Origin: Jiella mangrovi
GTDB lineage: Bacteria; Pseudomonadota; Alphaproteobacteria; Rhizobiales; Rhizobiaceae
Assembly (NCBI RefSeq): GCF_017815135.1
Contig: NZ_JAGJCF010000007.1
Span: 124,001-188,000 of the forward strand
Direction: 5' to 3'
Length of the DNA: 64,000 nucleotides
Shown here: positions 42,785 through 60,561 of the stretch, one piece after another
Layout: the number at the start of each line of letters is the position of its first letter
Position numbering within the stretch: position 1 is the stretch's first letter
Translations under genes and position numbers: made by a program
The notes under the pieces: model-generated
What the model was told of the DNA's origin: nothing
The model's database searches: none
What the model saw: the letters and a program-made list of their open reading frames with translations, nothing else

Positions 42785-43184
42785 GAAAAACTCCCTGAGA
42801 AACGCCAACCGTTGCAAAGCGCCGCGCTTTTGTGCGACCGCTCATGTGCGGCGCATAAATGATAGGCACAGATCGCAGCAATTTCCAAATCCTTCGCAGT
42901 GTTGCGACAGGGTTTTTGCATTGGCGAAACGGCCGCCTGCTTGAAAGCGTCTGTCGGCGCACCCGGCCTTCGAACGATCGCCCTGCCTCGGCTCGGCCGG
43001 GCCTTCCCGACATCGGCCATGCGCCGCGCTGTCGCACGCCAAAGCCATTGATGCGGCTCTCGAACACACGCAGCGATTTGAAAGGCTTGTGAGAAGCGAC
43101 CGCCGATCTGGCCTGTCGCCCCTTTCGGCGTTGCGCCGAAGCCCTATCTCTTCGCCGAACACGCAAAAGGCGGAGGAAATGACG
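42785..43184. other. 400-base divergent promoter region phaR/phaA
   Basis: No gene is supported. It contains the palindrome at 42816-42830 near phaR, an AT-richer stretch around 42855-42920 and a TTGC-rich segment near 42900 that may bind PhaR, then the phaA leader. Confidence 0.6.
42816..42830. promoter_or_regulatory. palindrome before phaR, candidate PhaR operator
   Basis: AAAGCGC-C-GCGCTTT is a perfect dyad with TTGC just outside its left arm, 32 bases before the phaR ATG. PhaR/AniA regulators act on their own promoters, so autoregulation is plausible. The sequence does not match a single fixed consensus, so the call is tentative. Confidence 0.4.
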
Positions 43185-44369
43185 ATGAGCAACACGCAAT
43201 CCGTGGTGATCGTGGGTGCGGCGCGCACGCCGGTCGGGTCTTTCAACGGCGCTTTCGCGCAGGTGCCCGCCCATCAACTCGGCGCTGCCGCGATCAAGGA
43301 AGCGCTGTCGCGCGCCAAGGTCGACGCCGCCGAGGTCGACGAGGTGATCATGGGCCAGATCCTGACCGCCGCCGAGGGCCAGAACCCGGCGCGCCAGGCG
43401 GCGATGGCCGCCGGCTGCCCCAAGGAGACCACCGCCTGGGCGCTCAACCAGCTCTGCGGCTCCGGCCTTCGCACCGTCGCCATCGGCATGCAGCAGATCG
43501 CCATGGGCGACGCCAACATCATCGTCGCCGGCGGCCAGGAATCCATGTCCATGGCCCCGCACGCCCAGCATCTGCGCGGCGGCCAGAAGATGGGCGACCT
43601 CAAGCTCGTCGACACCATGCTGAAGGACGGCCTGATGGACGCCTTCAACGGCTATCACATGGGCAACACCGCCGAGAACGTCGCCCGCCAATGGCAGCTC
43701 ACCCGCGAGATGCAGGACGAATTCGCGGTGAAGAGCCAGAACAAAGCCGAGGCCGCCCAGAAGGCCGGCAAGTTCCAGGACGAGATCGTGCCCTTCACCG
43801 TCAAGGGCCGCAAGGGCGACACGGTCGTCGACAAGGACGAATACATTAAGCACGGCGTCACCATGGAGAGCGTCGGCAAGCTGCGCCCCGCCTTCGACAA
43901 GGAAGGCTCGGTGACGGCCGCCAACGCGTCGGGCATCAATGACGGCGCCGCCGTGACCGTCCTGATGAGCGAGGCGGAGGCCGAAAAGCGTGGCCTCACC
44001 CCGATGGTGCGCATCGTCTCCTGGGCGACCGCCGGCGTCGATCCGGCGATCATGGGCACCGGCCCGATCCCGGCTTCCAAGAAGGCGCTGGAAAAGGCCG
44101 GCTGGTCGGTCGACGATCTCGATCTCGTCGAAGCCAACGAGGCCTTCGCCGCCCAGGCCTGCGCGGTCAACAAGGATCTCGGCTGGAACCCCGACATCGT
44201 CAACGTCAATGGCGGCGCCATCGCCATCGGCCACCCGATCGGAGCCTCGGGCAACCGCATCCTCAACACCCTCCTGTTCGAGATGCAGCGCCGCGATGCC
44301 AAGAAGGGCCTCGCAACGCTGTGCATCGGCGGTGGCATGGGCGTTGCCATGTGCTTCGAGCGGATGTGA
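43185..44369 (+). CDS. phaA: acetyl-CoA C-acetyltransferase (beta-ketothiolase) PhaA
   Basis: The 394-residue thiolase condenses two acetyl-CoA into acetoacetyl-CoA, the first step of PHB synthesis. The active-site Cys lies in [14 protein letters not shown], with the His in [18 protein letters not shown] and the second Cys in [12 protein letters not shown]. The ATG at 43185 is 8 bases after GGAGG, while the ATG at 43179 is only 2 bases away, so the shorter form MSNTQSVV is chosen and matches PhaA length. It is normally followed directly by phaB. Here two other genes intervene. Confidence 0.95.
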
Positions 44370-44396
44370 TATACCACCTCCAATAGGAGGAATGCG

Positions 44397-45167
44397 GTGG
44401 ACAACCAGATCGGCAGTGAAGGTCTACAGGACGTTCCGGGCTTCGAAATGAACGCCCGGAACAAGCTTTTTTCATACCAGATCCTGAGTGCGGCCTTGGC
44501 AGCGGCCGAACACTACGCCTTTCTTTCGGGTGGGCGGCACATTCGGGATTCCGCCGTCGAGCACTTTATCTCTGTCGAGCTCGCCAAGGCTTTGGTCTCA
44601 TACAAAGCAAAGATCTGGACGCAATTCTCCCTCGAATTGAATGACTTCGATCCTGCCGGTGAGGTGCATTCGGTCGATCATGCCATGCTAGAGGCAGGTG
44701 GGAACACCGTCTTTGGTGATGAAACGGAAAGAAAACGCATTGATATCGGACTGATCAGCGATTTTGGGGAGCGATATGGCCAGATTGGCCGGGATCCTCA
44801 CGAGCTGATTTACGCAGTAGAGGTAAAGCGCAACCTTGCTGACTCGGCAGAGGATATCCTACGCGTTTGCGGCCTGATGGATCGTCATCATGAAAGCGGT
44901 TGGTGTTGTCAGGGCGGGGGTGTTCTAGGGTTCGTTTCGCGCGAAAATGCCGGGAAAAAATCGGTAGCGGAGTTGGTGAAGACGCAGGTGACAAGGTTTG
45001 CGGATCGTGTCTCAGGTCACGGCTCGGAATTCGGCAAGAGGATTTCGTGCTGCTACCTCTCGAGATCGAACCCTCTTACGGAGTTCGAGAACAGCTTTGT
45101 GGCTCACAACAAGAATCAGATCGCGATGTTGACGGCCTGTTTCGTTGCCGTTGAGTTTGAGGGCTGA
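44397..45167 (+). CDS. hypothetical protein with PD-(D/E)XK nuclease-like core
   Basis: The 256-residue protein has a GTG start at 44397, set by AGGAGG six bases upstream. An N-terminal helical part contains Glu55 in AVEHFISVELAK. A pattern like the PD-(D/E)XK nuclease core follows: Asp116 in KRIDIGLIS and Glu142-x-Lys144 in IYAVEVKRN. This suggests a nuclease fold, but no named family is recognised. Composition is visibly more AT-rich than phaA and phaB, so the gene looks inserted into the pha operon. It ends 5 bases before the patatin-like gene. Function could be DNA repair, restriction-like or none; activity is not established. Confidence 0.7.
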   Translation: MDNQIGSEGLQDVPGFEMNARNKLFSYQILSAALAAAEHYAFLSGGRHIRDSAVEHFISVELAKALVSYKAKIWTQFSLELNDFDPAGEVHSVDHAMLEAGGNTVFGDETERKRIDIGLISDFGERYGQIGRDPHELIYAVEVKRNLADSAEDILRVCGLMDRHHESGWCCQGGGVLGFVSRENAGKKSVAELVKTQVTRFADRVSGHGSEFGKRISCCYLSRSNPLTEFENSFVAHNKNQIAMLTACFVAVEFEG

Positions 45168-45172
45168 TCGCG

Positions 45173-46069
45173 GTGCCCGATCATACCGACGCCCCCTTCG
45201 AACAGCTCGTCTTCTCCGGCGGCGGCACGCGATGTTTCTGGCATGGCGGCTTCCTCGAAACGGTGCGCGAGCCGCTGGGCCTGAAGCCGGAGCGCATCGC
45301 CGGCGTCTCCGGCGGCGCGTTGTCGGCCGCATGCTTCATCGGCCATCGCGACCAGAAGCTCCTGGAGGTGATGGGCGCGGCCTTCGACGAGCGCGACACC
45401 AACGTGACCATCAACTGGGACGAGTTCGACCGGAACGGCCTCACCCCGCATCAGCAGATGTATCGCGAGGTCGTGCGCGAGACGCTGGACGACGAGGCGG
45501 TGGCAAAGATCGCCAACGGCCCGAGCTTCGAGGTGCTGCTCGCCCATCCACCCCATTCGGGCTTTCCCAAGCTCACCACCTTTCCGATGATGGCGGCCTA
45601 TCTCGCCGACCTGACGATCCGCTCGACACCCCATGTCGTCTTTCCCGAAAAACTCGGGGCGCGCCAGGAGCTCGTCGATGCGCGGCAGGCGGCGCGTGAC
45701 GGCAAGCTGGTTGATCTCATCTGCAACGCCGCCGTCATCCCGCCGGTGTTCAACCTGCAGGGATGGAACGGCCGCAAGGTGATCGACGGCGGCATGACGT
45801 CCAAGGCGCCGATGCCGAGCGACAATCACGGCCGCACCCTCGTCCTTCTCACCCGCAAGTTCCGAAAGCTGCCGGAGCATCCGGGCCGGGTCTATGTCGA
45901 GCCGTCGCAATCGGTGCCGGCCGACAAGATCGACTTCACCGATCGGGGCAAGATCGTCGCCACCTGGAACGCCGGGGTCGAGGACGGCAGGGCCTTCATG
46001 GCGAGTTTTGCATCCACCGCCCATCTCGTCGCGGCAGATTCCACGAGTGTTCCTGCAAATCCGGTCTAG
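45173..46069 (+). CDS. patatin-like phospholipase/esterase
   Basis: The 298-residue patatin-domain protein has the oxyanion loop FSGGGTRCFWHGG at residues 14-26, the nucleophile elbow GVSGG with Ser46, and the catalytic Asp205 in DGGMTS. These make a Ser-Asp dyad lipid hydrolase. GTG at 45173 is the only start close to the preceding stop. GC content is normal for the genome, unlike the gene before it. There is no signal peptide, so it is cytosolic. Its place between phaA and phaB raises the idea of a role at PHB granules or membrane lipids, but no PHB-binding feature can be seen. Confidence 0.85.
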   Translation: MPDHTDAPFEQLVFSGGGTRCFWHGGFLETVREPLGLKPERIAGVSGGALSAACFIGHRDQKLLEVMGAAFDERDTNVTINWDEFDRNGLTPHQQMYREVVRETLDDEAVAKIANGPSFEVLLAHPPHSGFPKLTTFPMMAAYLADLTIRSTPHVVFPEKLGARQELVDARQAARDGKLVDLICNAAVIPPVFNLQGWNGRKVIDGGMTSKAPMPSDNHGRTLVLLTRKFRKLPEHPGRVYVEPSQSVPADKIDFTDRGKIVATWNAGVEDGRAFMASFASTAHLVAADSTSVPANPV

Positions 46070-46160
46070 TCAGGCACCATAACGGCCCCTACTCTCTTCA
46101 ACGAAGGTTAACCGTCGGCTCGCCCAAATTGTCCGGCGGATCTGTCGAAAGGGAGGAACA

Positions 46161-46886
46161 ATGACCAGAACAGCCATCGTCACCGGCGGAACCCGCGGCA
46201 TCGGCGCTGCGATCGCCAAGGCGCTGAAGGCCGCCGGACACAACGTCGCCGCCACCTACGCTGGCAATGACGAGCGTGCCAACGCCTTCAAGGAGGAAAC
46301 CGGCATCTCCGTCTACAAATGGGACGTCGCCTCCTACGACGCCTGTGTCGAGGGCATTGCCAAGGTCGAGGCCGAGCTCGGCGACATCGGCATTCTGGTC
46401 AACAATGCCGGCATCACCCGCGACGCCATGTTCCACAAGATGACGCCGGAGAACTGGCAGGCGGTGATCAACACCAATCTGAGCGGCCTGTTCAACATGA
46501 CACGGCCTGTCTGGGAGGGCATGCGCGCCCGCTCCTTCGGGCGGATCGTGAACATCTCCTCGATCAACGGCCAGAAAGGCCAGATGGGCCAGGCGAACTA
46601 TTCCGCCGCAAAGGCCGGCGACATCGGCTTCACCAAGGCCCTCGCCCAGGAAGGCGCGCGCAAGAACATCACGGTCAACGCCGTCTGCCCCGGCTACATC
46701 AACACCGACATGATGGCGACCATCCCCCCGGAAGTGATGGAAAAGCAGATCGTCGCCAACATCCCGGTCGGCCGGCTCGGCGAGCCCGAAGAGATCGCCC
46801 GCTGCGTCGCCTTCCTCGTCTCCGACGATGCCGGCTTCATCACCGGCGCGACGATCTCCGCCAATGGCGGCCAGTATCTCGCCTGA
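46161..46886 (+). CDS. phaB: acetoacetyl-CoA reductase PhaB
   Basis: This 241-residue short-chain dehydrogenase uses NADPH to make (R)-3-hydroxybutyryl-CoA for PHB synthase. The cofactor motif is TGGTRGIGAAIA, followed by LVNNAGITRDAMFHKM and the catalytic NISSINGQKGQMGQANYSAAK (Ser, Tyr, Lys; in part), and the PhaB-typical VCPGYINTDMMATI. Length and motifs fit PhaB rather than FabG. GGGAGGA precedes the ATG at 46161. A 91-base gap after the patatin gene may hold its own promoter. phaC is not in this window. Confidence 0.94.
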   Translation: MTRTAIVTGGTRGIGAAIAKALKAAGHNVAATYAGNDERANAFKEETGISVYKWDVASYDACVEGIAKVEAELGDIGILVNNAGITRDAMFHKMTPENWQAVINTNLSGLFNMTRPVWEGMRARSFGRIVNISSINGQKGQMGQANYSAAKAGDIGFTKALAQEGARKNITVNAVCPGYINTDMMATIPPEVMEKQIVANIPVGRLGEPEEIARCVAFLVSDDAGFITGATISANGGQYLA

Positions 46887-47947: not shown

Positions 47948-50443
47948 TCAGATATAGGAGGAGCTGGCGCTCAGGATCGACAGCGCCGGGTCCGTGCCTG
48001 ACGTGTCGTTTTCCAGATCGTACATCGCCAGGAAGCGATTGATCATGCGCTCGACATATTCGGTGTCGCCGAGCTGCTCGACGTCGATCTTCTTTTCCAG
48101 ATTTCGGGCCTGAACGTCGATGTCGCTCGAAGAGAACTCGTCCGGCAGGCCGAGAGTGGTCGTGACGAATTCCAGAAGAGCATCGTCGGCCAGGAACTCG
48201 TAGACGCTGGTGATATCCTCGGCCACGCGCTTGAAATAGAGCGCGAGGCGCACGCCGTTGCTCTCGTCGCCGGCTTCCTCCTCCATCTTCTGGCGAAGAT
48301 AGAGATCCTGCGTCGTCAGCATGTCGGAGACCGTCTGGACGCGTGAGACGTCGCGTTCGATCGTCCCGTCGGTATCGAAGTTGAAGGCGGCGGCAAATTC
48401 CAGATAGCGCGTGTCGTCGTATTTCCCGGCGACGCTGTCGGGATCGGAGAGATCGCTGGTCAGGATCGCCCTCAGCTCGTCCGACGTCAGCTTCTCCCCG
48501 TCGAGCCCGAAGGCCTTCAGCGCGAAGTCGACGAGGGTCGTATTGGCGAGGAAGTCGTCCATCGTGGCGACCTCCGGCACGGCGTAATTATAGGCGAGAA
48601 TGCCCTGCGCCGCTTCGATGAAATCCGTGTTGGCGCTGCCGAGAACCTTGTCGAAATACACGTCGATCATCACGTCAGTCCCGTCATCGCCGGTGGCCAG
48701 GGAAATATTGCCAAAGGCATCGATGTCGAAGGCGGAAGCCAAGGTCTGATACGCCTCGATGCCGAGGGCGTTGGTGAAGCTATCGGGGTCGGACAGATCG
48801 CTGGTCAGGACCTTTCGGATGATGTCCGGATCCTGGGTGTCGGGATTGAAGCCGATCGCCTTCATCGCATACGAGAAAGCATCCGTATCTTCTAGGAACT
48901 CGTCGATGCTCGAGATCGAGGCCATGGCCGACCGGAACGTTTGCGAATCCTGAACGGCCTCCGTGATCGCTTCCTTGTCCTCGTCGTCCTCCAGAAGGTT
49001 CAGATAGCGATCGATCGTGTCGCCCTGTGCGGTCTCGCTCTGCACCCGCCGCACTTCGGCGAGCTCGCCGTCAGAGCCGAAGTTGAAGGCGGCGGCCAGA
49101 CGCACATAGGCTTCATTGCCGAGCTTCGAGGCATAGCTCGACGGATCGGAGGGGTCGGAGCGCAAGACCCGCATAATCGTCGACTTGCTCTCCTCCGCCG
49201 GGTCGAGGCCGACGGCCGTCAGGGCGTATTCATAGACCGTGCTGTTGGCGAGAAACCCGGCGACGGTGGAGATATTCACGATGTTGGCGGCATAAAGCGA
49301 GGCGCTGAGGCTGTCGTCCTCCGCGGCGGCGCCGCCATATTCTTCGAGAAAGGCGTCGGTCAGCGCGGTGACATTCTCGGCCGTCTGGGCGCTGTCACCA
49401 TCAGCAAGGCTCCCATCCGTCTGGAACTGGAACATCTTCGCAAGCTCGATATACTGCTGCTTGCGGGTCGCGTCTGCCGTCGTCGCCTCCGACATCTGGT
49501 TCACGACGCTACCGGAATCTGACAGATCGCTGGTCAGCACATTCCAGACGAAGGCGGAGGTTTCGACCGAGGGATCAAGGCCGACGGCCGTCAGCGCGAC
49601 CGTCAAGAGACGCGGATTCTCGATGAGATCGTCCGCCGACTCGATATTGCCGATCTCGGCCTCGTAATAGGACGCCTGCAGCGCCGCCGCCTGGGGCGAG
49701 GCCTCAAGCCCCTTCTGCTGATAGTAGAGATAGGCGGTCGAATTGATCTCCGACGCGCTCTGCAGCCCGTCCGCCGGCACTCGCCCATTCTCCTCGAAGG
49801 GCAGCATCGCCGCCAGAAGCAGGTAGCGGTCGTCGCCCTTGTCCGACATCTCGTCGGCCTTGGTGCCGGTCAGAACCTCGCGGATGAAGCTCTTCGACGC
49901 CACCGAAGCGTCGATACCGGCAGCTTCCAGCGCGACCGAGAAAAGCTGGTCGTCGGCAAGGAACTGGTCGACGGTGTTGATCTCGCCGATATTCGTGGTG
50001 AAGTAGTTGACGCTGGCGGCCACCGCCTGCGCGGCTTTCACCCGATGTTCCGAGTAGCTGTCGACCATGGCCAGCGTCTGGGCGTCGCTTTGGGCGACTA
50101 GCTCGACCTCTTCGGTCGTGGTGCCGAAGCTGAAGGCCGCGGCGAAGTCGCGATAGCGTTCGTCGGAAAGCTGGTTGGCGAAACTGGACGAATCGGAGAG
50201 GTCGCTCTCCAGCACCTTGCGGATCAGGGCGCGGGAATCGATCTGGTCTTCCAGACCATAGGCCGTCATCGCATAGGAATAGAGCCGGTAGTCGCCCATG
50301 AACTCGTCGATGGTTTCGACCGTGCCGATGTTCTCGCTGTAATAGGTCGCGAGGCGCTGGTTCATGCTGTCGGACGCAATGCGGTCCAGCACCCGCGACT
50401 GATCACGCGTGTAGAGCTGATAGGTCGTGAAGGTCGAAAGCAT
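47948..50443 (-). CDS. large DUF1217 repeat protein (seven units)
   Basis: The 831-residue soluble protein is built from about seven units of ~110 residues, each recognisable by (I)xxIDEFLxDxxLFxYAxxAxGL, (I)RKVLxSDLSDPxS, and an AAAFNFxxDG ending. Ordinary DUF1217 proteins of rhizobia have about 250-300 residues with one or two units and lie near flagellar genes; no flagellar gene lies here. The start at 50443 (MLSTFTTYQLYTRDQS) matches the family N-terminus; the upstream extension to 50509 is poor. There is no signal peptide, so export by a flagellar-type or type I system is only a thought. The protein is acidic and highly regular. Confidence 0.8.
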   Translation of the reverse strand: MLSTFTTYQLYTRDQSRVLDRIASDSMNQRLATYYSENIGTVETIDEFMGDYRLYSYAMTAYGLEDQIDSRALIRKVLESDLSDSSSFANQLSDERYRDFAAAFSFGTTTEEVELVAQSDAQTLAMVDSYSEHRVKAAQAVAASVNYFTTNIGEINTVDQFLADDQLFSVALEAAGIDASVASKSFIREVLTGTKADEMSDKGDDRYLLLAAMLPFEENGRVPADGLQSASEINSTAYLYYQQKGLEASPQAAALQASYYEAEIGNIESADDLIENPRLLTVALTAVGLDPSVETSAFVWNVLTSDLSDSGSVVNQMSEATTADATRKQQYIELAKMFQFQTDGSLADGDSAQTAENVTALTDAFLEEYGGAAAEDDSLSASLYAANIVNISTVAGFLANSTVYEYALTAVGLDPAEESKSTIMRVLRSDPSDPSSYASKLGNEAYVRLAAAFNFGSDGELAEVRRVQSETAQGDTIDRYLNLLEDDEDKEAITEAVQDSQTFRSAMASISSIDEFLEDTDAFSYAMKAIGFNPDTQDPDIIRKVLTSDLSDPDSFTNALGIEAYQTLASAFDIDAFGNISLATGDDGTDVMIDVYFDKVLGSANTDFIEAAQGILAYNYAVPEVATMDDFLANTTLVDFALKAFGLDGEKLTSDELRAILTSDLSDPDSVAGKYDDTRYLEFAAAFNFDTDGTIERDVSRVQTVSDMLTTQDLYLRQKMEEEAGDESNGVRLALYFKRVAEDITSVYEFLADDALLEFVTTTLGLPDEFSSSDIDVQARNLEKKIDVEQLGDTEYVERMINRFLAMYDLENDTSGTDPALSILSASSSYI

Positions 50444-50545
50444 GGCGGTCCCGTAGCAGCGATGCGCGCAACACCCGGCCGGCGGTGGACACATCTCGTC
50501 GAACTGCATGCTACCGTTTTATGCTTAATGACCCGTTAAATCGAA

Positions 50546-50588
50546 ACCGGCGATGGCTAAGATACTTTCCAAAGCATGTATCGCCGGT
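50546..50588 (-). other. stem-loop between the DUF1217 gene start and thuB end
   Basis: ACCGGCGAT (50546-50554) pairs exactly with ATCGCCGGT (50580-50588) around a 25-base loop. It lies 65 bases after the thuB stop and could end the trehalose operon transcript, although no T-run is present. Confidence 0.35.
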
Positions 50589-50652
50589 GGAATTTCAACC
50601 GTAACCACAGCGCGCAATTGCCGGCCCTGCGCTGACGATTGAAGCGGCTTTC

Positions 50653-51759
50653 TCACACCGGCGGAAGGACCACCGGCAGCATCCGCCGCTCCTCGTCGGA
50701 GACGAAGCACAGATCGAGCAGCTTCTGCACCTCGGCCGCGTGGCGGAAATCCGGCTCGCCGTTAACGCCCGACAACAGCGCCAGAACGAAACGGTCGGCA
50801 TTGCGCGGTGTCGGCGGGCACTCGACCCGCCGCCAGCTCTGCGAGTGGATGTCTTCGCCCAGACACACGTCGAGGCTGGATTCGGTGGTGTTCGACCAGA
50901 TCTTGAGGGCGCCCGTGGTGCCATGAATGGTGAGGTCGAGATCGTTGGCCTTGCCGGTGGCATAGCGGCTCATGTGAACGACGCCCAAAGCCCCGTTGTC
51001 GAACTCGACGGTCATCGCGCAGCTGTCATTGGCGTCGAGCCTGTAAGCGCCGATCGCTCCGCCTTCGGCCTTGTCGAAGGTCTTCAGCCGCGCCTGCAGC
51101 GCCGCGATGCCGAGCCCGGTTCCGAAACAGGCGAAATCGAGGATATGGATGCCGATATCGCCGAGAACGCCCTTGGAGCCGTGGCCGGAGGACAACCGCC
51201 AGAGCCAGCGCTCGTCGGTCTGCCAGTCGCCCCAATGGTTGCCGGTGAGCCAGCTCTGGAGGTAGCTCGCTTCGACGTGGCGCACGGTGCCGATCTCGCC
51301 GGCCTCGACCATACGACGGGCGAGCTGGATGGCATGGGCGTTGCGATAGGTGAGGTTGACCATGTTGATCAGCCCCGCCCGCTCTGCGGCGCCGACCATC
51401 TGGAAGGCGTCCTCGGCGTTCAGCGCCAGGGGCTTTTCGCAGAAGATCGCCTTCTTCGCCGCAATCACTTGCAGCGTCGTCGCCTTGTGGACGGCATCGG
51501 GCGTCGCGTTGACGACAGCGTCGAATTCGCCCCAGGAGAGCGCCTCGGCAAGATCGGCGAAAGATTTCTCGATGCCGTGCAGGGTCGCGAAGGCCTGCGA
51601 CCGCTCGGCATTGACGTCGCAGGCGGCGACCACCTTGCAGCCGGGGATCGAGATGAAATGCTCGGCATGGCGATGGGCGATCGCCCCGGTGCCGAGGATC
51701 ATGATGCGTTTTTCGCCGGACGCGCCGAGCCCGGCGGCGGACGGATTGTCGTTCGTCAT
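50653..51759 (-). CDS. thuB: Gfo/Idh/MocA family sugar oxidoreductase, ThuB-like
   Basis: The 368-residue NAD(P)-dependent enzyme has the Rossmann motif ILGTGAIAHRHAEHF near residue 20. The family motif EKPLALNAEDAF (catalytic Lys) and the loop DIGIHILDFACF (catalytic Asp/His) follow. The ATG at 51759 gives the usual length, although no strong Shine-Dalgarno sequence is visible. It lies 13 bases after the ThuA gene. In Sinorhizobium, ThuA and ThuB together turn trehalose or maltitol-type disaccharides into 3-keto derivatives. The pairing and order make that assignment likely here, while the exact sugar remains open. Confidence 0.85.
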   Translation of the reverse strand: MTNDNPSAAGLGASGEKRIMILGTGAIAHRHAEHFISIPGCKVVAACDVNAERSQAFATLHGIEKSFADLAEALSWGEFDAVVNATPDAVHKATTLQVIAAKKAIFCEKPLALNAEDAFQMVGAAERAGLINMVNLTYRNAHAIQLARRMVEAGEIGTVRHVEASYLQSWLTGNHWGDWQTDERWLWRLSSGHGSKGVLGDIGIHILDFACFGTGLGIAALQARLKTFDKAEGGAIGAYRLDANDSCAMTVEFDNGALGVVHMSRYATGKANDLDLTIHGTTGALKIWSNTTESSLDVCLGEDIHSQSWRRVECPPTPRNADRFVLALLSGVNGEPDFRHAAEVQKLLDLCFVSDEERRMLPVVLPPV

Positions 51760-51772
51760 CGTCGTCACCGCC

Positions 51773-52558
51773 TTACCGATAGCCCTGTTCGCCCGGCTTG
51801 TGCAGCGAGCCGCCCTTCTGCTCGATCTTTTCCGGCGCCTTGTCCACCGGCACGTTCGGCGCGGCGGAAACGTCCGTCCAGGCAGGCACGGGGTTGTAGG
51901 CCCAGCGCACGGCATTGACGATCACGCGCTGGATCTCGGGATTGTGGTAGATCGGATAGGTCTCGTGGCCGGGGCGGAAATAGAAGATCCTGCCCGCGCC
52001 ACGCTGATAGGTCAGGCCGGAGCGGAACACCTCGCCGCCCTCGAACCAGGAGATGAACACGGTCTCCATCGGCTCGGGGACCAGGAACGGCTCGCCATAC
52101 ATTTCGGCGTTGGGAAGCTCGATCGACGGGCCGACGCCTTGCACGATCGGGTGCGAGCGGTTCACCGCCCACAGCCGCTCGCGCTCGCCGGCCTCGCGCC
52201 ATCTGAGCGAACAGGGCGTTCCCATCAGCCGTTTGAACGGCTTGGAAAAATGCCCCGAATGCAGAACGATCAGCCCCATGCCCTGATGCACCCGCCCGGC
52301 CACCCGGTCGACGATCGCATCCTCGACGTCGCCGTGCATCTTGTGGCCCCACCACAGAAGCACGTCGGTTTCGTCGAGGCGCGCCTTCGAGAGGCCATGC
52401 TCGGGCTCGGGCAGTGTCGCGGTGGACGCTTCTATGCCGTCCTCGCGGCCGAGAAAACCGGCGATCGCCGCATGGATACCGTCAGGATAGATCTCCTTGA
52501 CGACGTCGTTGTGCTGTTCGTGAAAGAACTCGTTCCAGACGAGCGCGCGAATGGTCAT
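51773..52558 (-). CDS. thuA: ThuA-domain protein
   Basis: The 261-residue ThuA-family protein has a glutamine amidotransferase-like fold: [13 protein letters not shown] at the start, [53 protein letters not shown] and the later NAVRWAYNP. ThuA works with ThuB in the trehalose-utilisation pathway of rhizobia. It begins 67 bases after the treY stop in the same direction, which links it to trehalose synthesis rather than to a thuEFGK uptake system; none is seen here. Confidence 0.88.
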
Positions 52559-52625
52559 CTATCCCTCCCGGGCCGTTTTCCGGCCTTTCCCCGCCTTCAT
52601 CCGGCCGGGCGCTTATTTGCGGGCC

Positions 52626-55331
52626 TCAGATCGCCGTGAGGATCGCCACGGGAAGATCCTTCAAGACCTGTGCGACGGCAAGCTCACTGCCGACATCCAG
52701 CGTTTCACCGGTCAGGATATCACGCCAGCCACGCGTCGCCAGACCCTCCGGGAGCCTGATCGTCGTCCCCTCCCAGCCTTTGGTCGCCGCCGCGATGTCG
52801 TCGCTTCCCTGAAGCAGGGTCAGGGTGAGACGCGGCGCGACGACGAGGGCGGCGTGGCCGTCCTCGCCCTTGCGGGCAAAGGCGACGACATGGGCGGCCC
52901 GCGGGCCGGTCACGGTGAGCGGCAGGTAGTCGGCGGCGGTGAAGACCTCGCGCCTTTGCGAGCGCAGCGCCAGGCCCGCCGCCGTCAGCCGCGCCTTCAG
53001 CGCGCCGGAGCGCCAGTCGGCAAGGTCGCCGGCAAGACTGCCGTCCTTGTCGATCACACGCGCCCGGGCGGCAAAATCCACCGGACGGCGATTGTCGGGA
53101 TCGACCAGCGAGAAGTCGTAGAATTCCGTGCCCTGATAGATGTCCGGCACGCCGGGCGCCATCAGCTTGATCGCCGTCTGGGAGAGCGAATTCAGCGCGC
53201 CGGCGGCGACGAAGGGCTGCACGGCCCGCCAGAAATTGGCGATGAACGAGCCCTCGCCGCCATCCTCCAGCATCGCCCCGACGAAATCGGCGAGCGCCGC
53301 CTCATAGGCCTCGGCCGGCGACGTCCAGCTCGTCCAGCGTTTGGCCTCGCGCACGGCCTTTTCGGCGAAGGCGGCAAGCCGCGCCGCGATCTCGTCGCGC
53401 AGAGCGTCGTCGGCCGGGTCGAAATCGGCCGGGAGAACCCCGAGCAGCGACTGGTAGAGGCCCCATTCGGTCTCCGGATCGGGCGAATCAAGGCTCGGCT
53501 CGACGGAAATCCGGCGATCGGACAGGGTCTGGGCGAAGCCGGCGACGAGTTCCGCCCAGCGCTCGGGCGCTTCGGAGAGCGTGTAAAGCCGCGCCCGCGC
53601 GTCCTCGCCGCGCTTGGTGTCGTGGGTCGAGGTCGCCAGCAACCCTTCCGGCTGGTCCTCCAGCCGGATCTGCATCGCGTCGTGAAACACCGAGACGTCG
53701 GCGCCGTAAAGATCCGGCTCGCCGCCGACCTCGTTCAGCGCGATCAGCCGGTTGTAGCGGTAGAACACCGTGTCCTCGACGGCCTTGGCCATCACCGCGC
53801 CCGTCGTCTGCTGGAACCGCCGGGTGAAGTCGAGCGCGCCGGCAATGTCCGCCCCGTCCTCGAAATCGAGCTTGAGCAGCCGGCCGATGAACTGGATCGG
53901 CTCGTCGGCCTCCACCTCGCGCCAGGTCATGGCGAGATCGACGGCCTCGTCGATGATCGCGATGTCGCGGCTCGGCACGCCGTCGACCGAGACATAGGTG
54001 CGGTAGACCGGCAGCGCTGCGGCCACCTCGACGATCGAGCGCGCCATGGTGTCGGGCCCGAGGTCGCGGGTGGAAAGGCCGAGCGAGGCGACAGACAGGG
54101 CAAGACCCGTCAGCGCCGTCAGCTCGCCGGCGAGATTGCGCTGGAAGATCGAGCGCTTCTGGCGAAGGATCATGCCGCGCAGATCCTGCTCCTCGCCGAC
54201 AAAGGCCTGATAGGCCTCGGTCATCTCGATTTCCCGATCGGAATCGACATAAAGCCCGGCCAGCGCCGTGATGAATTCGTAGCCGGTCGTTCCCTCGATC
54301 TCCCAGGTCGTGCGCAGCCGCTCGTCGCCGGTGAGGATCTTCTCCACATGCACCGACGGGGCGCGCCGGACCGAGTGAAACGCCTGGCGAAGCTGTTCCA
54401 GATAGCCCTTGGGATCGGCGAGGCCGTCGACGTGGTCGATGCGGATGCCGTCGAGACGCCGCTCGCGCGCCAGCCGGATGACGAGCTGGTGCGACTCACG
54501 AAAGACGCGGCGCGACTCCTGCCTGACGCCGATCAGATCGGCGATCTCGAAAAAGCGGCGATAGGTCAGCTTCTCGCGGGCCGTGCGCCACCAGGCGAGA
54601 CGCCAGGCCTGCGCCTCGTGCAGCTCGTGCAGCGCGTCGCGGTCGGCGTTGATCGCGGCGATGGCGGCCTGCAGCGCCTCGCCGAATTCGCCGTCCTGCA
54701 GATGCTCGAGCAGGCGTTCGGTCAGCTCGTCGGCCTCCGCCGGCGTCGCCACCGAGAAGCGGCGCACCAGCCGGTCCTTCTCGGGATGGTCGATCAGGCC
54801 GAAGACGTGGCCGTAGCTGCGCGGATCGACCGGCAGGCCGTAGCCGGCCGCGTCGAAGCGCAGGGCGCCCGCCTTTTCGTCGAGCCGCACCGACAGGTCA
54901 CCCGCCTCCAGCGCCTCGCCATAGGGCTTGCCGAGAACGGGAACGAGGATCTTCTCGGCCTCCCAGGCGATGTCGAAGGTCGGCGCGTAGCGGCTTTCCG
55001 AGCCCCAGCGCAAGACGTCCTCCCACCAGTGATTGGCCGGCGAAACGCCCATATGATTGGGCACAAAATCGAGAACGAGGCCGAGATCGGCGGAAGAGAG
55101 CGCGTCGCTCATCCTGGTGAAGCCACCGACGCCGCCAAGGCTTTCGTCGAGGCTGTTGTAGTCGGTGACGTCGTAGCCGTGGGTGGAGCCGTCGGCCGCC
55201 GCGAAGATCGGCGCGGCGTAGAGATGGCTGACGCCGAGCGCCTTCAGATAGGGCGCGAGGCCGGCGGCCGTTTCGAAGTCCATCCCCTCGCGGAACTGCA
55301 GGCGATAGGTTGCGACGAGCGAGCGGCTCAT
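52626..55331 (-). CDS. treY: malto-oligosyltrehalose synthase TreY
   Basis: This 901-residue GH13 enzyme turns the reducing-end alpha-1,4 link of maltooligosaccharides into an alpha,alpha-1,1 link. The N-terminus ATYRLQFREGMDFETAA is diagnostic. GH13 landmarks are DFVPNHMG (region I), RIDHVDGLADP (region II with the nucleophile Asp), EKILTGDERL (acid/base Glu) and STHDTKRGEDARAR (region IV). The start overlaps the malQ stop as ATGA. It is cytosolic. TreZ then releases trehalose from its product. Confidence 0.95.
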   Translation of the reverse strand: MSRSLVATYRLQFREGMDFETAAGLAPYLKALGVSHLYAAPIFAAADGSTHGYDVTDYNSLDESLGGVGGFTRMSDALSSADLGLVLDFVPNHMGVSPANHWWEDVLRWGSESRYAPTFDIAWEAEKILVPVLGKPYGEALEAGDLSVRLDEKAGALRFDAAGYGLPVDPRSYGHVFGLIDHPEKDRLVRRFSVATPAEADELTERLLEHLQDGEFGEALQAAIAAINADRDALHELHEAQAWRLAWWRTAREKLTYRRFFEIADLIGVRQESRRVFRESHQLVIRLARERRLDGIRIDHVDGLADPKGYLEQLRQAFHSVRRAPSVHVEKILTGDERLRTTWEIEGTTGYEFITALAGLYVDSDREIEMTEAYQAFVGEEQDLRGMILRQKRSIFQRNLAGELTALTGLALSVASLGLSTRDLGPDTMARSIVEVAAALPVYRTYVSVDGVPSRDIAIIDEAVDLAMTWREVEADEPIQFIGRLLKLDFEDGADIAGALDFTRRFQQTTGAVMAKAVEDTVFYRYNRLIALNEVGGEPDLYGADVSVFHDAMQIRLEDQPEGLLATSTHDTKRGEDARARLYTLSEAPERWAELVAGFAQTLSDRRISVEPSLDSPDPETEWGLYQSLLGVLPADFDPADDALRDEIAARLAAFAEKAVREAKRWTSWTSPAEAYEAALADFVGAMLEDGGEGSFIANFWRAVQPFVAAGALNSLSQTAIKLMAPGVPDIYQGTEFYDFSLVDPDNRRPVDFAARARVIDKDGSLAGDLADWRSGALKARLTAAGLALRSQRREVFTAADYLPLTVTGPRAAHVVAFARKGEDGHAALVVAPRLTLTLLQGSDDIAAATKGWEGTTIRLPEGLATRGWRDILTGETLDVGSELAVAQVLKDLPVAILTAI

Positions 55332-57187
55332 GAGGTTTTCGGCCTTTCTTCGCGCATCGCCGCCGCGAGCTCCCGGAAGCGGGCGTTTTCAGCCAGCTCT
55401 TCGAGGGGGACGGAGGTGACGATGCGCCAGTTCGGATATTGATCGGTGGTGCCGGGAAGGTTGGCCTGCCGCTTCGACCCGACCATGTCGTCGAGCTGAA
55501 CGGCCAATAGCAGCGCCGCGCCGCGGGCGATATAGCGATGGATGGCGATGGCGAGCGCATCCGGCAGTTCGGCGGGAAGATCGCTCGTCCCGCCGGGGAC
55601 CCCGGCAAATTCGTCCGGCAGAGCGCCGGCGCCGTCGAGCGCGCGGATCAGCATCGCCTTTTCCTGTTCGCGGGACTTGCGGTCGCGGGTCGTCGCCGCC
55701 TCGTCCTGCGTGCCGGCTTCGAAACGCAGCTCGATGTCGGCGCCCGTCCACCAGCCGGCGAGCGTCGCCAGATCATGGGTGGAAATGCAGGCGAGCGACA
55801 GGCGCGGATAATTGGCGGGGTCGATGAAGCTGCCGTCCTGATGGCGCTCGAAATAAAGCACCCGGTAGGAGAACACGTTCGCCTCCGCCATGGTCTCGCG
55901 AAAACCTTCCGGCACCGTGCCGAGATCCTCGCCGATGACGACACAGCGGTTCTCGTTCGCCGCCGATGCGACGGCGTCGACCATGGCGCCGAGATGATAG
56001 CGCATATAGCCGCCGCCGGCCGAGCGCGCCTCGTTCGGGATCCACCACAGCCGCGCAAGCCCCATCGCGTGGTCGATGCGCACCGCGCCGGCGTGGCGGG
56101 TCAGCGCCGAGAAGGCGTCGAACAGCGGCTTGTGGTCCCGTTCCGCGAGAGCCTTGGGGGAAAGCGGCGCGAGGCCCCAGTCCTGGCCCTGGCTGTTGAA
56201 CATGTCCGGCGGCGAGCCGACGCGGGCGGAATTGACGGTGAGCGCCGGATCGGCCCAGGTCTCCGCCCCGTCCGGCGCGACGCCGACGGCGAGATCGAGA
56301 TAAAGGCCGATCGCCATGCCGGCGGTCTTGGCCCGCGCCTGGGCACTGGCGAGCTGCTCCTCGGCCTCGAATTGCAGCCACAGGTGAAACAGCACGCGCT
56401 CGCGCTTTTCCGTCGCAAAGCGCGCGACGTCCGGCGAGCTGCGGTCTCTCAAGGCCTGCGGCCAGTGATGCCAGCCGGCATGACCGCCCTCGGCCACCTG
56501 ATCTTCCGACAGCGCCTCGAACAACGCAAAGCCCTGAAGCGCCTCGCCGCCGTCCTCGACGAAACGCTGAAACGCCTGCAGGTCTTCCAGCTCGCCTTTG
56601 CGGCTCTCGAAGACCCGGTCGAACAGGGCCCGTTTCAGCCGGCCCATCAGCGGATAGTCGACGAGATCCTTCTTGCGATGGGAGAACAGGCCGGGCGCCT
56701 CGTCCTGCAGCGCCGCGATCGCCTCGGGGCCGCCGTCCATGTGATCGACGGCGATATAGAACGGGTTGAGGAACCGGCGGGTCGAGGGCGAATAGGGGCT
56801 GAAGCGCCCGCCTTCGGCGAGAAACAGGGCATGCAGCGGATTGACGCCGACGAAGTCCGCGCCCTCTTTCGCCGCGATGATCGCCAGCTGCGCCAGATCC
56901 TCGAAATCGCCGATGCCGAGATTGCGCGCCGAGCGCAGCGCGTAGAGCTGGCAGGCGACGCCCCAGTGGCGATGGCCGGCGATTTCGTCCGGCAGCGGGC
57001 AGGCAAGCGTCGGCGCCTCGGTGGCATCCTTGAAATCGCCGAAGCCGCCGCGATCGGGATCGACGCCCAGCACCTCGAGAAGCGCCAGCTTGGAGGCGTC
57101 GTCGATCTTCTTGTCCTCGCCGAGCTCGGAGATGTAGGCCGTCTGAATGCCGTGGCTTTTCGCCAGCCTGTCGAGATAGTCGTTCAT
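55328..57187 (-). CDS. malQ: 4-alpha-glucanotransferase MalQ
   Basis: The 619-residue GH77 amylomaltase transfers glucan units between maltooligosaccharides. GH77 motifs are YALRSARNLGIGDFEDL (near the N-terminus), VRIDHAMGLARLWWIP (nucleophile Asp), VIGEDLGTVPEG (acid/base Glu) and STHDLATLAGWW. The frame is open upstream to 57805, but the ATG at 57187 overlaps the treZ stop (TGATG) and gives the normal start MNDYLDRLAKSHG. Set between treZ and treY, it probably adjusts chain length so that short maltooligosaccharides can be used by TreY. Confidence 0.94.
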   Translation of the reverse strand: MNDYLDRLAKSHGIQTAYISELGEDKKIDDASKLALLEVLGVDPDRGGFGDFKDATEAPTLACPLPDEIAGHRHWGVACQLYALRSARNLGIGDFEDLAQLAIIAAKEGADFVGVNPLHALFLAEGGRFSPYSPSTRRFLNPFYIAVDHMDGGPEAIAALQDEAPGLFSHRKKDLVDYPLMGRLKRALFDRVFESRKGELEDLQAFQRFVEDGGEALQGFALFEALSEDQVAEGGHAGWHHWPQALRDRSSPDVARFATEKRERVLFHLWLQFEAEEQLASAQARAKTAGMAIGLYLDLAVGVAPDGAETWADPALTVNSARVGSPPDMFNSQGQDWGLAPLSPKALAERDHKPLFDAFSALTRHAGAVRIDHAMGLARLWWIPNEARSAGGGYMRYHLGAMVDAVASAANENRCVVIGEDLGTVPEGFRETMAEANVFSYRVLYFERHQDGSFIDPANYPRLSLACISTHDLATLAGWWTGADIELRFEAGTQDEAATTRDRKSREQEKAMLIRALDGAGALPDEFAGVPGGTSDLPAELPDALAIAIHRYIARGAALLLAVQLDDMVGSKRQANLPGTTDQYPNWRIVTSVPLEELAENARFRELAAAMREERPKTS

Positions 57188-59073
57188 CAGGCTTTCCCGG
57201 TAATCAGCTTCTGGCTTTCGAGGCGGAACACCACCGACGGTCCCGGCAAGATGCCGGTCCGCAGAATGTCGTCCGAGCCCTTCGGATAGGCATGGAGGAG
57301 TTCGCCGCAGGTGAGGTCCCCGGTGACGACGTCGGAGGGTATCGCCCAGGGTTCGTCGTCGAGATTGGCGAAGAGATGCAGCGTCGAGCCCTCCTTCAGA
57401 TGCCAGGCGACGACGAAGGTGAGCGTATCGTCGGAGACGTGATATTCGCCGCAATTGCCCGGCAGCGGATCCTTGAGGAGAGGCACGACGAGCCGCAGGC
57501 GCTTGTCGAGGAGCTGCTTCACCATTGCCAGCCGCCGGCGATAGTTCGGCCTTCCGACCATCGACCAATCGAGCTTGGAGGCCTCGAAGGTCGTCTCGGC
57601 ATTCGGATCGGGGATCAGCGCGCGGGCGTCCTCGTCGCGGAAGGCGGCGAACTTCTTGAATTCCGACCGCCGCCCTTCGCGCACGGCCGCCCCGAGTTCG
57701 CCGTCGAAATCGGTGAAGAAGCAGAAGGGGTGGGTGTCGCCATATTCCTCGCCCATGAACAGCAAGGGGATCTGCGGCGACAGGAGGAGGATCGCCTGCA
57801 AACACTCGACCACCCGCCGCGAGGACAGGTCGCTCAGCCGGTCGCCGAAGGCGCGGTTGCCGATCTGGTCGTGGTTCTGCAGGAAATTGACGAAGGCCGT
57901 CGGCGGCAGATGCGCCGAGGAGACGCCGACATCCTTGTCGCGATGGGCCGAATGGTCGCCCTGAAAGACGAAGCCGGTGGCCAGCGCCTTGGCCATCTGC
58001 GCGACGGAGCGGCGGGAATAATCGGCGTAGTATCCCTCTTCCTCATGGGTCGCGAGGACGTGGGCGGTGTGGTGGAAGTCGTCGTTCCATTCGGCCGAGA
58101 CATGGGTCGGCTGGCCGTTCTCGCGCTCGATATGCCAGGTGATGTTGCGGTCGTCCTCGGTGGTGATGTGGACGTGGCGCCCTGGAAAGGCCGCTCGCAC
58201 CCGTTCGGCCAGCTCCGTCACCAGCGGCGTGTCGGTGGTGTCCTTGATGGAATCGATGGCATCGAGCCGCAGTCCGTCGATGCGATATTCCTCCAGCCAG
58301 AACAGCGCATTGTCGATCATGAAGTCGCGCACCGGCTGTTCGTCATAGGCGATCGCAGCGCCCCAGGGGGTGTGGATCTCCTGATGGAAGAACTCCGGCG
58401 CATAGGCGCCGATATAGTTCCCGTCCGGGCCGAAGTGATTGTAGACCGCGTCGAGAAACACCATCAGGCCGCGCTCATGGGCGGCGTCGACGAGGCGTTT
58501 CAGCCCCTCTGACCCGCCATAGGCCTCGTGCGGGCAGTAGAGAAGCACGCCGTCATAGCCCCAACCCCGGCGCCCGCCGAACTGGGCGACGGGAAGAAGC
58601 TCGATGGCGGTGATGCCGGTGTCCTTCAGATAGTCGAGCTTCTCGACGATGCCCTCGAAATCCCCGCTGGGGCTGAAGGTGCCGGTGTGAAGTTCGTAGA
58701 AGACCGTCTCCTCCCAGGGCCGGCCGTTCCAGTCGGCGGTCTTCCATTCAAACGCCGTCGGATCGACCAGCACGGAGAGGCTGTGCACGTCGCCGAACTG
58801 CCGGCGCGAAGCCGGATCGGGCACGACGAGGCCGCTTTCGAGGCGAAAGCCGTAGGCGCCGCCCGGCTTGACCTTGTCGGTGGAGATCAGCCACCAGCCG
58901 CCGCCATCCTTTTCCATCGGCAGGAACCCGGCCGGCTTGCCGGCCGCGTCGCCGATGGCAAGTTCGACCGACGGAGCGGAGGGAGCCCAGAGGCGAAACT
59001 CCGTCCGCCCCCCATCGGCGGCGCGCGGGCCCCAGCTGGTTTCGAATGAAAAGCGATCGGCAGATCGAGCCAT
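57187..59073 (-). CDS. treZ: malto-oligosyltrehalose trehalohydrolase TreZ
   Basis: This 628-residue GH13 enzyme has an N-terminal CBM48-like beta domain (TEFRLWAPSAPSVELAIG) and the catalytic barrel. Landmarks are VFLDAVYNHFGPDG, GLRLDAIDSIKD (nucleophile Asp), HITTEDDRN (acid/base Glu/Asp region) and NFLQNHDQIGNRAFG. It splits trehalose off maltooligosyltrehalose. The ATG at 59073 follows AAGGGACGAGA. It is the first gene of a five-gene leftward unit (treZ, malQ, treY, thuA, thuB). The upstream ~190 bases should hold the promoter; no clear operator was recognised. Confidence 0.94.
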   Translation of the reverse strand: MARSADRFSFETSWGPRAADGGRTEFRLWAPSAPSVELAIGDAAGKPAGFLPMEKDGGGWWLISTDKVKPGGAYGFRLESGLVVPDPASRRQFGDVHSLSVLVDPTAFEWKTADWNGRPWEETVFYELHTGTFSPSGDFEGIVEKLDYLKDTGITAIELLPVAQFGGRRGWGYDGVLLYCPHEAYGGSEGLKRLVDAAHERGLMVFLDAVYNHFGPDGNYIGAYAPEFFHQEIHTPWGAAIAYDEQPVRDFMIDNALFWLEEYRIDGLRLDAIDSIKDTTDTPLVTELAERVRAAFPGRHVHITTEDDRNITWHIERENGQPTHVSAEWNDDFHHTAHVLATHEEEGYYADYSRRSVAQMAKALATGFVFQGDHSAHRDKDVGVSSAHLPPTAFVNFLQNHDQIGNRAFGDRLSDLSSRRVVECLQAILLLSPQIPLLFMGEEYGDTHPFCFFTDFDGELGAAVREGRRSEFKKFAAFRDEDARALIPDPNAETTFEASKLDWSMVGRPNYRRRLAMVKQLLDKRLRLVVPLLKDPLPGNCGEYHVSDDTLTFVVAWHLKEGSTLHLFANLDDEPWAIPSDVVTGDLTCGELLHAYPKGSDDILRTGILPGPSVVFRLESQKLITGKA

Positions 59074-59260
59074 GTGACGTTCTCGTCCCTTCGAGGCATG
59101 TGTTCGTGCCGGCACCCGTCCCACCGGGGCCGCGAGCGCTGGCAATCGGCCGAGCGCTCCCGCACTGCACATTAACTAAAGCGTGCGGCAGAGCGTCCAG
59201 CCCCATAGGACGTTGAATTTTAATTGTCCGGCTGTGGCCCCGCCTCGCGAGGCCGCCGGC

Positions 59261-60334
59261 TCAGGCCTGCCCCGCCCTGCCGCGCACGAGCTCATGGATG
59301 AATCCGAGCTTGCCCTTCACCGTCTCGGAAATCACGAAGGGATAGAGGTCGTTGTGTCCCATCGATCGGTTGAAGGAGTTGAGCGCCGCAGACAGCGCCA
59401 GCCACGCCTCGTCGATGTCGCCGATCGTGGTTTCATCGGCGAAGACGTCGAAATCGATCGTCGTCGTCAAAAGGCCGGAATCGCGCACCCGCGGATCGAC
59501 CGACACGCCCCACCAGTGGCCGGTCTCCAGGCTGTCGACGATGTGGAGGTAATGCGCCCAGGTCTCGGCGAAATCCTCCCAGGCATGGGCCCCGGAATAG
59601 GACGAGACGTATTCGTCCTGCCAGTTCGGCTTCGGGCCGTTCTCGTAATGGCGCTGCAGCGCCTCGCCGTAATCCTCGGTATCGTCGCCGAAGATCGCCC
59701 GGCAGGCTTCCAGCGCGCCGGGATTGCCGTCGCGCACCAGCCGGTCCCAGTACCAGTGGCCGACCTCGTGGCGAAAATGGCCGAGGAGCGTGCGGTATGG
59801 CTCGCCCATCGAGGTGCGGCGCTTTTCGCGCTCGGCGTCGTCGGCCTCGACGAGGGCGATGGTGATGAGGCCGAGATCGTGGCCGGTCATCACCTGCTCT
59901 TCGCCCTTGGTGTCGGCGAGGAAGTCGAAGCCGAGCCCTTCCGGGTGTTCGTCGCGCGTCACCAGCGGCAGTCCCAGCCGGATCAGCTCATAGAACATCC
60001 GCCGCTTGGCGATCTCCATCTTCTGCCAGCGCGCGAGATTCTGCGGATCAGAGACGTCGGGCACGGTGACGTTGTGGCGGCAGGCCATGCAGAACTCGTC
60101 GTCGCTCTCGCCGGCAATCAGCCAGTTGCAGACGCCGTGCGTGTAGTTGGCGCAGTATTTCCAGCTCGCCCCGTCGGAATGGCTTCCGGCGGCGACGAAG
60201 ATGCCGTCCGAGGGCTCCAGCGCCAGCATGCGGTTCGAGGTGGGCTCGTAGCCCAGCGCATGGCCGCAGCGCTCGCAGACGACGTTTTCGAAAAACACGA
60301 CCTGCGAACAGGAAGGGCAGGAGAACAGCTTCAT
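59261..60334 (-). CDS. putative zinc-binding metallopeptidase with zinc ribbons
   Basis: The 357-residue protein begins with a zinc ribbon (CPSC...CERC, Cys at 6, 9, 20 and 23), followed by a second Cys cluster (Cys61, Cys69, Cys82, Cys85). The peptidase-type HEVGH motif lies at residues 189-193 in LLGHFRHEVGHWYWDRL, with downstream acidic residues in HAWEDFAETWAHYLH as the third ligand. This is the family of uncharacterised zinc-binding peptidases often found beside DUF2126 transglutaminases. Start ATG at 60334. It is divergent from the transglutaminase gene, sharing 227 bases of promoter. Confidence 0.86.
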   Translation of the reverse strand: MKLFSCPSCSQVVFFENVVCERCGHALGYEPTSNRMLALEPSDGIFVAAGSHSDGASWKYCANYTHGVCNWLIAGESDDEFCMACRHNVTVPDVSDPQNLARWQKMEIAKRRMFYELIRLGLPLVTRDEHPEGLGFDFLADTKGEEQVMTGHDLGLITIALVEADDAEREKRRTSMGEPYRTLLGHFRHEVGHWYWDRLVRDGNPGALEACRAIFGDDTEDYGEALQRHYENGPKPNWQDEYVSSYSGAHAWEDFAETWAHYLHIVDSLETGHWWGVSVDPRVRDSGLLTTTIDFDVFADETTIGDIDEAWLALSAALNSFNRSMGHNDLYPFVISETVKGKLGFIHELVRGRAGQA

Positions 60335-60561
60335 CTTGTAGGGTCCTTGCGCCGGGCAAGCGCGTCAAAACGATTGCGCGCGTCAATGCTTAGTGCAAAC
60401 GCCGGTTCCGCCGATCGGTCGCACGACCTGAAAAAATATCTTTGCGTCACCCGCACCGGCGGCGACCGCGATAGCGCGCATGGCTTGCCGCATTGCGAGA
60501 TAAGCTTAAGCTTTCGTCTGAAACGAAACGGGACGTCCCGACGGGAGACACGAAAGCGACC

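Follow-up and report, generated by a model that had tools for sequence, protein, structure and literature searches.

Trehalose 3-oxidation genes inside a trehalose-synthesis cluster suggest that Aurantimonas-group bacteria may break down or remodel self-made trehalose

In a stretch of 64,000 nt of the Jiella mangrovi genome (the window), the genes treZ, malQ, treY, thuA and thuB form a head-to-tail array on the minus strand, each with a full-length family match. The presence of thuAB inside a cluster for trehalose synthesis suggests that Aurantimonas-group bacteria may break down or remodel trehalose that they have made themselves. We lean towards the view that the five genes constitute one operon in which ThuAB would act as an oxidative exit for self-made trehalose, and that thuAB moved there from an import cassette. 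A more far-reaching proposal is that ThuAB of Aurantimonas-type bacteria was repurposed, with at least two relocations, from imported disaccharides to the exit of a pathway from glucan via trehalose to 3-keto-trehalose, without substrate-induced control by ThuR; we give it slightly less than an even chance. Each component is known. What appears to be new is that synthesis and 3-oxidation are joined in one array, which is kept across genera and was probably formed more than once; no paper treating thuA, thuB and treY together was found in the open-access literature, outside of which most subscription journals lie.

Results

The thuAB genes directly follow treZ-malQ-treY

The first-pass annotation of the window had described a same-strand array with short overlaps among the synthesis genes and gaps of 67 and 13 bases before and after thuA. 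Coordinates and family matches confirmed this arrangement (Table 1), with overlaps of 1 base for treZ/malQ and of 4 bases for malQ/treY. The open frame of treZ reaches position 59172, beyond the proposed start at 59073.

Table 1. Positions of the array in the window and of the importer cluster on its own locus.
Feature	Position	Strand	Remarks
treZ, malto-oligosyltrehalose trehalohydrolase	57187..59073	-	628 aa from proposed start
malQ, 4-alpha-glucanotransferase GH77	55328..57187	-	619 aa
treY, malto-oligosyltrehalose synthase	52626..55331	-	901 aa
treY-thuA gap, 67 bases	52559..52625	-	no terminator-like site, no LacI/ThuR-type motif
thuA, ThuA-family protein	51773..52558	-	261 aa
thuB, Gfo/Idh/MocA-family dehydrogenase	50653..51759	-	368 aa; EKP and D-x-G-x-H sequences
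treZ upstream region	59074..59260	-	promoter expected here, none identified
Importer cluster thuE-F-G-GNAT-GH13-thuK	L105 6441-13031	+	

The three synthesis proteins, encoded in one array, all exceeded the NCBI equivalog cut-offs: TreZ with TIGR02402 (673.6 bits, cut-off 538.8), TreY with TIGR02401 (939.7 bits, cut-off 498.65) and MalQ with TIGR00217 (389.3 bits, cut-off 205.65). MalQ also matched PF02446 with 378.3 bits. Among the solved relatives, six of the seven listed for TreZ carry trehalohydrolase names, those of TreY are named MTSase or maltooligosyl trehalose synthase, and that of MalQ is 4s3p. MalQ and TreY both match NCBIfam model NF011077, which has 1693 positions, MalQ at 164-724 and TreY at 745-1689, so the pairing of MalQ and TreY in a single protein is already a named architecture. 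As in the TreYZ synthesis cluster represented by this fusion model, treZ, malQ and treY are contiguous in the window; unlike in that cluster, thuAB is appended and glgX is unlinked, with two copies elsewhere.

ThuA matched PF06283 over its full length (model positions 1-209 of 209; 118.9 bits, cut-off 33.4), and its solved relative 1t0b (E 5e-98) covers residues 3-223. ThuB contains the N- and C-terminal Gfo/Idh/MocA domains, both above cut-off. Since ThuA had no NCBIfam match at E ≤ 0.001 and no NCBIfam model scored above its cut-off for ThuB, we named both by their identity to rhizobial proteins. ThuA has 66-70% identity to rhizobial ThuA over 261 amino acids (best 40 of 234 plasmid records) and about 66% to ThuA of Rhizobium etli; ThuB has 51% identity to R. 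etli ThuB over 332 residues. By its family, its EKP and D-x-G-x-H sequences and the adjacent thuA gene, ThuB is predicted to be a trehalose dehydrogenase that, together with ThuA, would oxidize carbon C3. The formation of a 3-keto derivative by ThuB and ThuA of rhizobia and Agrobacterium is described in later papers that cite the original work (PMC6515357, PMC6683767). The genome harboring the window contains a single ThuA match.

The linkage is kept across genera

A ThuA relative is encoded by 241 of the 271 stretches obtained by pattern matching in genome_contigs; we retained the best 80 as named loci (L numbers). Because these were ranked by likeness to the query, counts among them are not frequencies. 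The order treZ-malQ-treY-thuA-thuB was kept in 16 of the 80 loci (L005-L019, L021), assigned by record title to Fulvimarina, Jiella, Aurantimonas and Aureimonas. In 26 loci thuA follows thuE-F-G-K, and the remaining 38, of which 7 are shortened, showed neither arrangement in the available DNA. The malQ gene of L010 (5358-7215, +) is divided between two reading frames, indicating a sequencing error or a broken gene.

We also analyzed an even draw of 297 genomes (G numbers) from 109 genera of the same family. ThuA was present in 123 genomes (E ≤ 1e-40), TreY in 92 (E ≤ 1e-60) and a ThuE orthologue in 73 (E ≤ 1e-110). The distance from treY to a thuA behind it on the same strand is below 300 bases in 19 genomes (8 genus codes), with 42-119 bases between the matches. 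In 34 genomes thuA and thuE are less than 15 kb apart. These two sets have no genome in common among the 297. In G239 and G249 thuA and treY are less than 15 kb apart outside this array, on opposite strands in the former and at a distance of 6.9 kb in the latter. The neighborhood of treY and thuA, proposed earlier as a test by synteny, thus recurred in both samples. Of the 109 genera, 48 have thuA and 40 have treY; 30 have both (Fisher p 7e-7, without correction for relatedness).

Median identities to the window among the 16 loci were 88% for ThuA, 86% for ThuB, 83% for TreZ, 77% for MalQ and 82% for TreY, ThuA and ThuB being the best conserved proteins of the array. For the most distant locus the values were 61% (TreZ), 61% (MalQ) and 69% (TreY). 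An alignment of 28 ThuA proteins from treY-linked and importer-linked loci had 94 invariant columns out of 263. This invariance, and a conservation of ThuA and ThuB at least as high as that of the synthesis enzymes, argue that both proteins are probably active and unchanged in kind.

In four near relatives thuAB is part of the importer cassette

Four near relatives (G034, G136, G232, G035) have thuR followed by thuA-thuB-thuE-F-G-K in a single run, with a GH13 gene before thuK in three of them. Their treZ-malQ-treY genes lie elsewhere and are not accompanied by thuAB. In three of the four these genes sit behind a Zn-peptidase gene; this was not found in the available stretch of G136. A strict LacI-type motif (T-N2-AA-N-CG-N-TT-N2-A) occurs twice between thuR and thuA of G034, G136 and G035, with a spacing of 21 bases. 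No strict motif precedes thuA in G232, where a 12-of-16 palindrome is present. The strict motif was also found twice between thuR and thuE of G091, and R. etli has it once. It was absent from the 400 bases scanned in S. medicae, from nine other thuE upstream regions including that of the window's genome, and from the region before thuA of G205 and G286, in which thuAB lies apart from both treY and the importer.

At the treY-linked loci the strict motif was present in none of the 23 treY-thuA gaps and in none of the 23 regions upstream of treZ, and a looser palindrome scan gave no site in the 23 gaps. A thuR homologue (E ≤ 1e-5) was found neither in the 23 linked loci nor at the importer of the window's genome. 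We concluded that treY-linked thuAB has no local signature of trehalose-induced control.

According to the annotation, a promoter and a strong terminator in the 67-base gap would have spoken against a single operon. A simple scan found neither a sigma-70-like promoter nor a terminator-like site there; the sites predicted by the terminator scan were no commoner than in shuffled sequence. A simple consensus scan of positions 49500-60500 revealed no sigma-70-like promoter. The shared strand, the short gaps and the lack of a terminator-like site in the gap are consistent with one transcript. An EcfG/RpoE2-like promoter upstream of treZ was rejected as a candidate, since GGAAC-N-CGTT, which we take to be the motif of such promoters, occurred in 0 of 20 loci. 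The alignment of treZ upstream regions had no conserved block in the portion viewed, its tail.

Some further genomes differ in gene content. G064 encodes a divergent ThuA (60%), and no thuB was seen adjoining it. In G171, which has treZ-malQ-treY, no thuA or thuE was found with the limits applied. By eye, a pyruvate carboxylase-like gene lies behind treY in G232, G286, G171 and G035. No thuAB remnants were detected behind treY in eight genomes lacking thuAB at this place, the only hits being two short matches with E 0.6-0.8.

The importer is encoded on another contig

The importer genes of the window's genome are located on contig C37, and thuAB on C38. Identities to R. etli are 63% for ThuE, 72% for ThuF, 73% for ThuG and 55% for ThuK. 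GNAT and GH13 genes lie between thuG and thuK, and the GH13 protein scored 890.2 bits with NF051899, slightly below the cut-off of 900. Despite this GH13 gene we rejected the alternative that the cluster is AglEFGAK rather than Thu: its substrate-binding protein is 65% identical to ThuE inside the thu cluster of one Agrobacterium genome (L051), compared to 37% for the next-best substrate-binding protein of that genome, which identifies the C37 importer as a Thu orthologue. The absence of thuEFGK noted in the first-pass annotation therefore holds for the surroundings of thuAB and not for the genome, where C37 carries ThuEFG-GNAT-GH13-ThuK. A GNAT gene between thuG and the GH13 gene was also seen in L135, L150, L151 and L155.

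Gene trees make more than one origin of the linkage probable

The tree of TreZ-MalQ-TreY comprised 31 clade rows and 3 outgroup rows from fetched loci, with some linked genomes absent, and required five changes between linked and unlinked states, or four without the outgroup. In the tree of ThuA and ThuB, the treY-linked copies of G091 grouped with the importer-linked copies of G035 (support 100/98), and a single clade for all 23 treY-linked ThuAB was rejected (p-AU 0.013). ThuEFGK of G091 also grouped with that of G035 (support 99, quick tree). TreZ-MalQ-TreY of G091 grouped with G232, G171 and G286 (support 100), in conflict with the placement of its ThuAB and ThuEFGK. Since the treY-linked ThuAB of G091 is nearest to importer-linked copies, the linkage probably arose more than once.

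The simplest history compatible with these trees would be that lineages exchanged the thu cassette and that thuAB later moved behind treY in G091. A possible alternative is that recombination replaced an older treY-linked thuAB. The 369 bases between thuR and thuE of G091 match G035 on the thuR-thuA side (82%, 49 bases) and on the thuB-thuE side (77%, 47 bases, partly coding). They would fit a loss of thuAB from the importer cassette, but they are short, and the idea of a scar at this place was dropped.

Other trehalose and glucan genes in the genome

The genome also encodes OtsA (543.3 bits, just below the cut-off of 564.85), OtsB, a TreS-maltokinase fusion, GlgB and a further TreS-like protein (555.5 bits, cut-off 678.35). 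A genome search for glgX and glgE found both, with two GlgX proteins and GlgE encoded outside the array. The earlier suggestion that MalQ takes the place of a debranching enzyme is weak in view of the two GlgX, GlgB, GlgE and TreS-maltokinase, and in view of NF011077, which pairs MalQ with TreY. At E ≤ 0.001 the genome had no GH37, GH65 or DUF1080 match, and a DUF1080 protein as 3-keto hydrolase partner was therefore rejected. A GH15 protein of 622 amino acids on C37 (L157 817-2685, +) resembles the archaeal trehalase TreH (382 bits, cut-off 820).

A GH13 match was also located at G000:C10:31955-32224 (L090, L108), where the codon-based caller predicted no gene. By eye this stretch adjoins a transposase-like gene and is possibly foreign DNA.

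Discussion

We propose that the input is alpha-glucan, such as glycogen ends, or maltodextrin, that MalQ would rearrange maltodextrins, TreY would generate the trehalose end and TreZ would cut trehalose off, and that ThuB with ThuA would then oxidize it to 3-keto-trehalose in the same cell. The purpose may be osmolyte recycling or the draining of glycogen through trehalose. Under a shared promoter the trehalose pool would be made and drained together, which could be useful at the end of stress or when glycogen is spent. In evolution, thuAB would have left an inducible cassette (thuR / thuAB-thuEFG-GH13-thuK) and entered the synthesis operon, probably more than once.

The earlier suggestion that the cell may oxidize its own trehalose gains from the conserved, operon-like array and from the position of thuAB away from thuEFGK; the presence of the importer on C37 speaks against it. 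No ThuE match (E ≤ 1e-110) was found in 6 of the 19 linked genomes (G053, G213, G268, G149, G054, G178), in which other importers were not searched. The array was kept in these six, so its linkage to treY is independent of this importer, and the use of self-made trehalose is the better-supported reading.

Several observations weigh against this reading. The window's genome has its own importer and 13 of the 19 linked genomes carry ThuE elsewhere, so that ThuAB could still serve imported trehalose. Rhizobial ThuAB reportedly also acts on maltitol and sucrose isomers, as the title of Ampomah 2013 (10.1128/JB.00478-13) says. The GH15 TreH-like protein and TreS-maltokinase/GlgE could consume trehalose as well; with several candidates in the genome, ThuAB would be one among several possible fates. 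A single transcript for both the synthesis and the breakdown of trehalose would seem futile, unless some other control acts on the enzymes. When G091 was left out, a choice made after the tree had been seen, 22 of the 23 rows fitted one clade and a single origin was not rejected (p-AU 0.37). With the looser palindrome scan, two of the 23 loci (L006, L017) each had a site upstream of treZ. Finally, the strict motif contains TNNAANCGNTT, given as the PckR motif in the consulted part of PMC8877191, where it overlaps the predicted ThuR motif; as its core is also that of PckR, the motif does not prove control by ThuR.

The strongest competing explanation, which we nevertheless consider rather unlikely, is that ThuAB continues to act on trehalose, maltitol or sucrose isomers that the unlinked ThuEFG-K or another importer takes up, the place behind treY being a convenient address. 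The annotation had named a thuEFGK cluster elsewhere that uses this ThuAB as evidence of this kind, and one half of it, the cluster itself, is present on C37 (ThuEFG 63-73%). The occurrence of ThuE in most of the linked genomes points in the same direction, as do the ThuA columns that are invariant across both kinds of loci and imply that the reaction is probably unchanged. What this explanation leaves unaccounted for is that thuAB stands beside treY and not elsewhere, a place probably reached more than once, that the linked loci are devoid of thuR and of the strict ThuR-type motif, and that six linked genomes had no ThuE match.

It is very improbable that the pathway ends with a modified sugar, 3-keto-trehalose or one derived from it, which ThuAB would supply for protection, signalling or the cell envelope. 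BT2157, a 3-ketotrehalose hydrolase according to the part of PMC9007349 consulted, has a DUF1080 domain, and the lack of a DUF1080 protein in the genome would suit such a product. However, the named loci have no tailoring or export gene attached to the array; the gene after thuB encodes a DUF1217 protein in 12 of the 16 and is a different one in the rest. In addition, rhizobia use ThuAB catabolically, as stated in the consulted sections of PMC3518184. For the modified disaccharide product proposed in the annotation we found no positive evidence.

Least probable is a frozen accident, i.e., a single ancestral rearrangement without functional coupling: most linked loci do belong to one related group, and one clade was not rejected without G091, but the short gaps were maintained over 8 genus codes at synthesis-protein identities down to 61/61/69%, G091 suggests a second joining, and the overlap of thuA and treY genera is large for chance, with relatedness not corrected.

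The thuEFGKAB operon of Sinorhizobium, Rhizobium and Agrobacterium has a role in uptake and 3-oxidation of trehalose, maltitol and sucrose isomers. The window shares with it the order of thuA and thuB and the EKP and D-x-G-x-H sequences of ThuB. Unlike in that operon, thuAB follows treY instead of thuK, the importer is on another contig, and neither thuR nor the strict ThuR-type motif is present at thuAB. In the literature consulted in part, trehalose oxidation by rhizobial ThuAB is described jointly with uptake as a nutrition trait. R. etli CFN 42 has the same kinds of genes (OtsA/OtsB, TreS, TreYZ, ThuAB, ThuEFGK) according to the consulted sections of PMC3518184. The same sections place them at scattered sites: treY on p42e, treZ on the chromosome and on p42f, thuAB with thuEFGK on p42f (L002), and another thuAB on the chromosome.

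If ThuAB indeed acts on self-made trehalose, cells without GH37 trehalase have an unrecognized route by which a stress solute can be cleared or remodeled, and simple gene removals could test what 3-keto sugars do in bacterial cells. The importer-linked and synthesis-linked arrangements offer a ready natural comparison.

Genes surrounding the array

Upstream of treZ, a protein with zinc-ribbon and Peptidase_Mx domains is encoded at 59261-60334 (-) of the window, and its gene is present at this place in 15 of the 16 named linked loci. The DUF1217 gene directly after thuB (47948-50509, -) encodes six matched stretches. Thiolase and short-chain dehydrogenase/reductase genes (phaA/phaB-like) with a patatin-like gene between them lie at 43179-46886 (+); the corresponding gene cluster c63 was not seen in L011 and L014-L019. 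In L112 (14563-19661, +) genes for a divergent transglutaminase-like/DUF2126 amidoligase protein and a DUF2252 protein lie upstream of the array, the first of which is common to many relatives. A conserved block, inositol (iol)-like by eye, comes after thuAB in L032, L039, L053, L058, L063, L076, L078 and L082.

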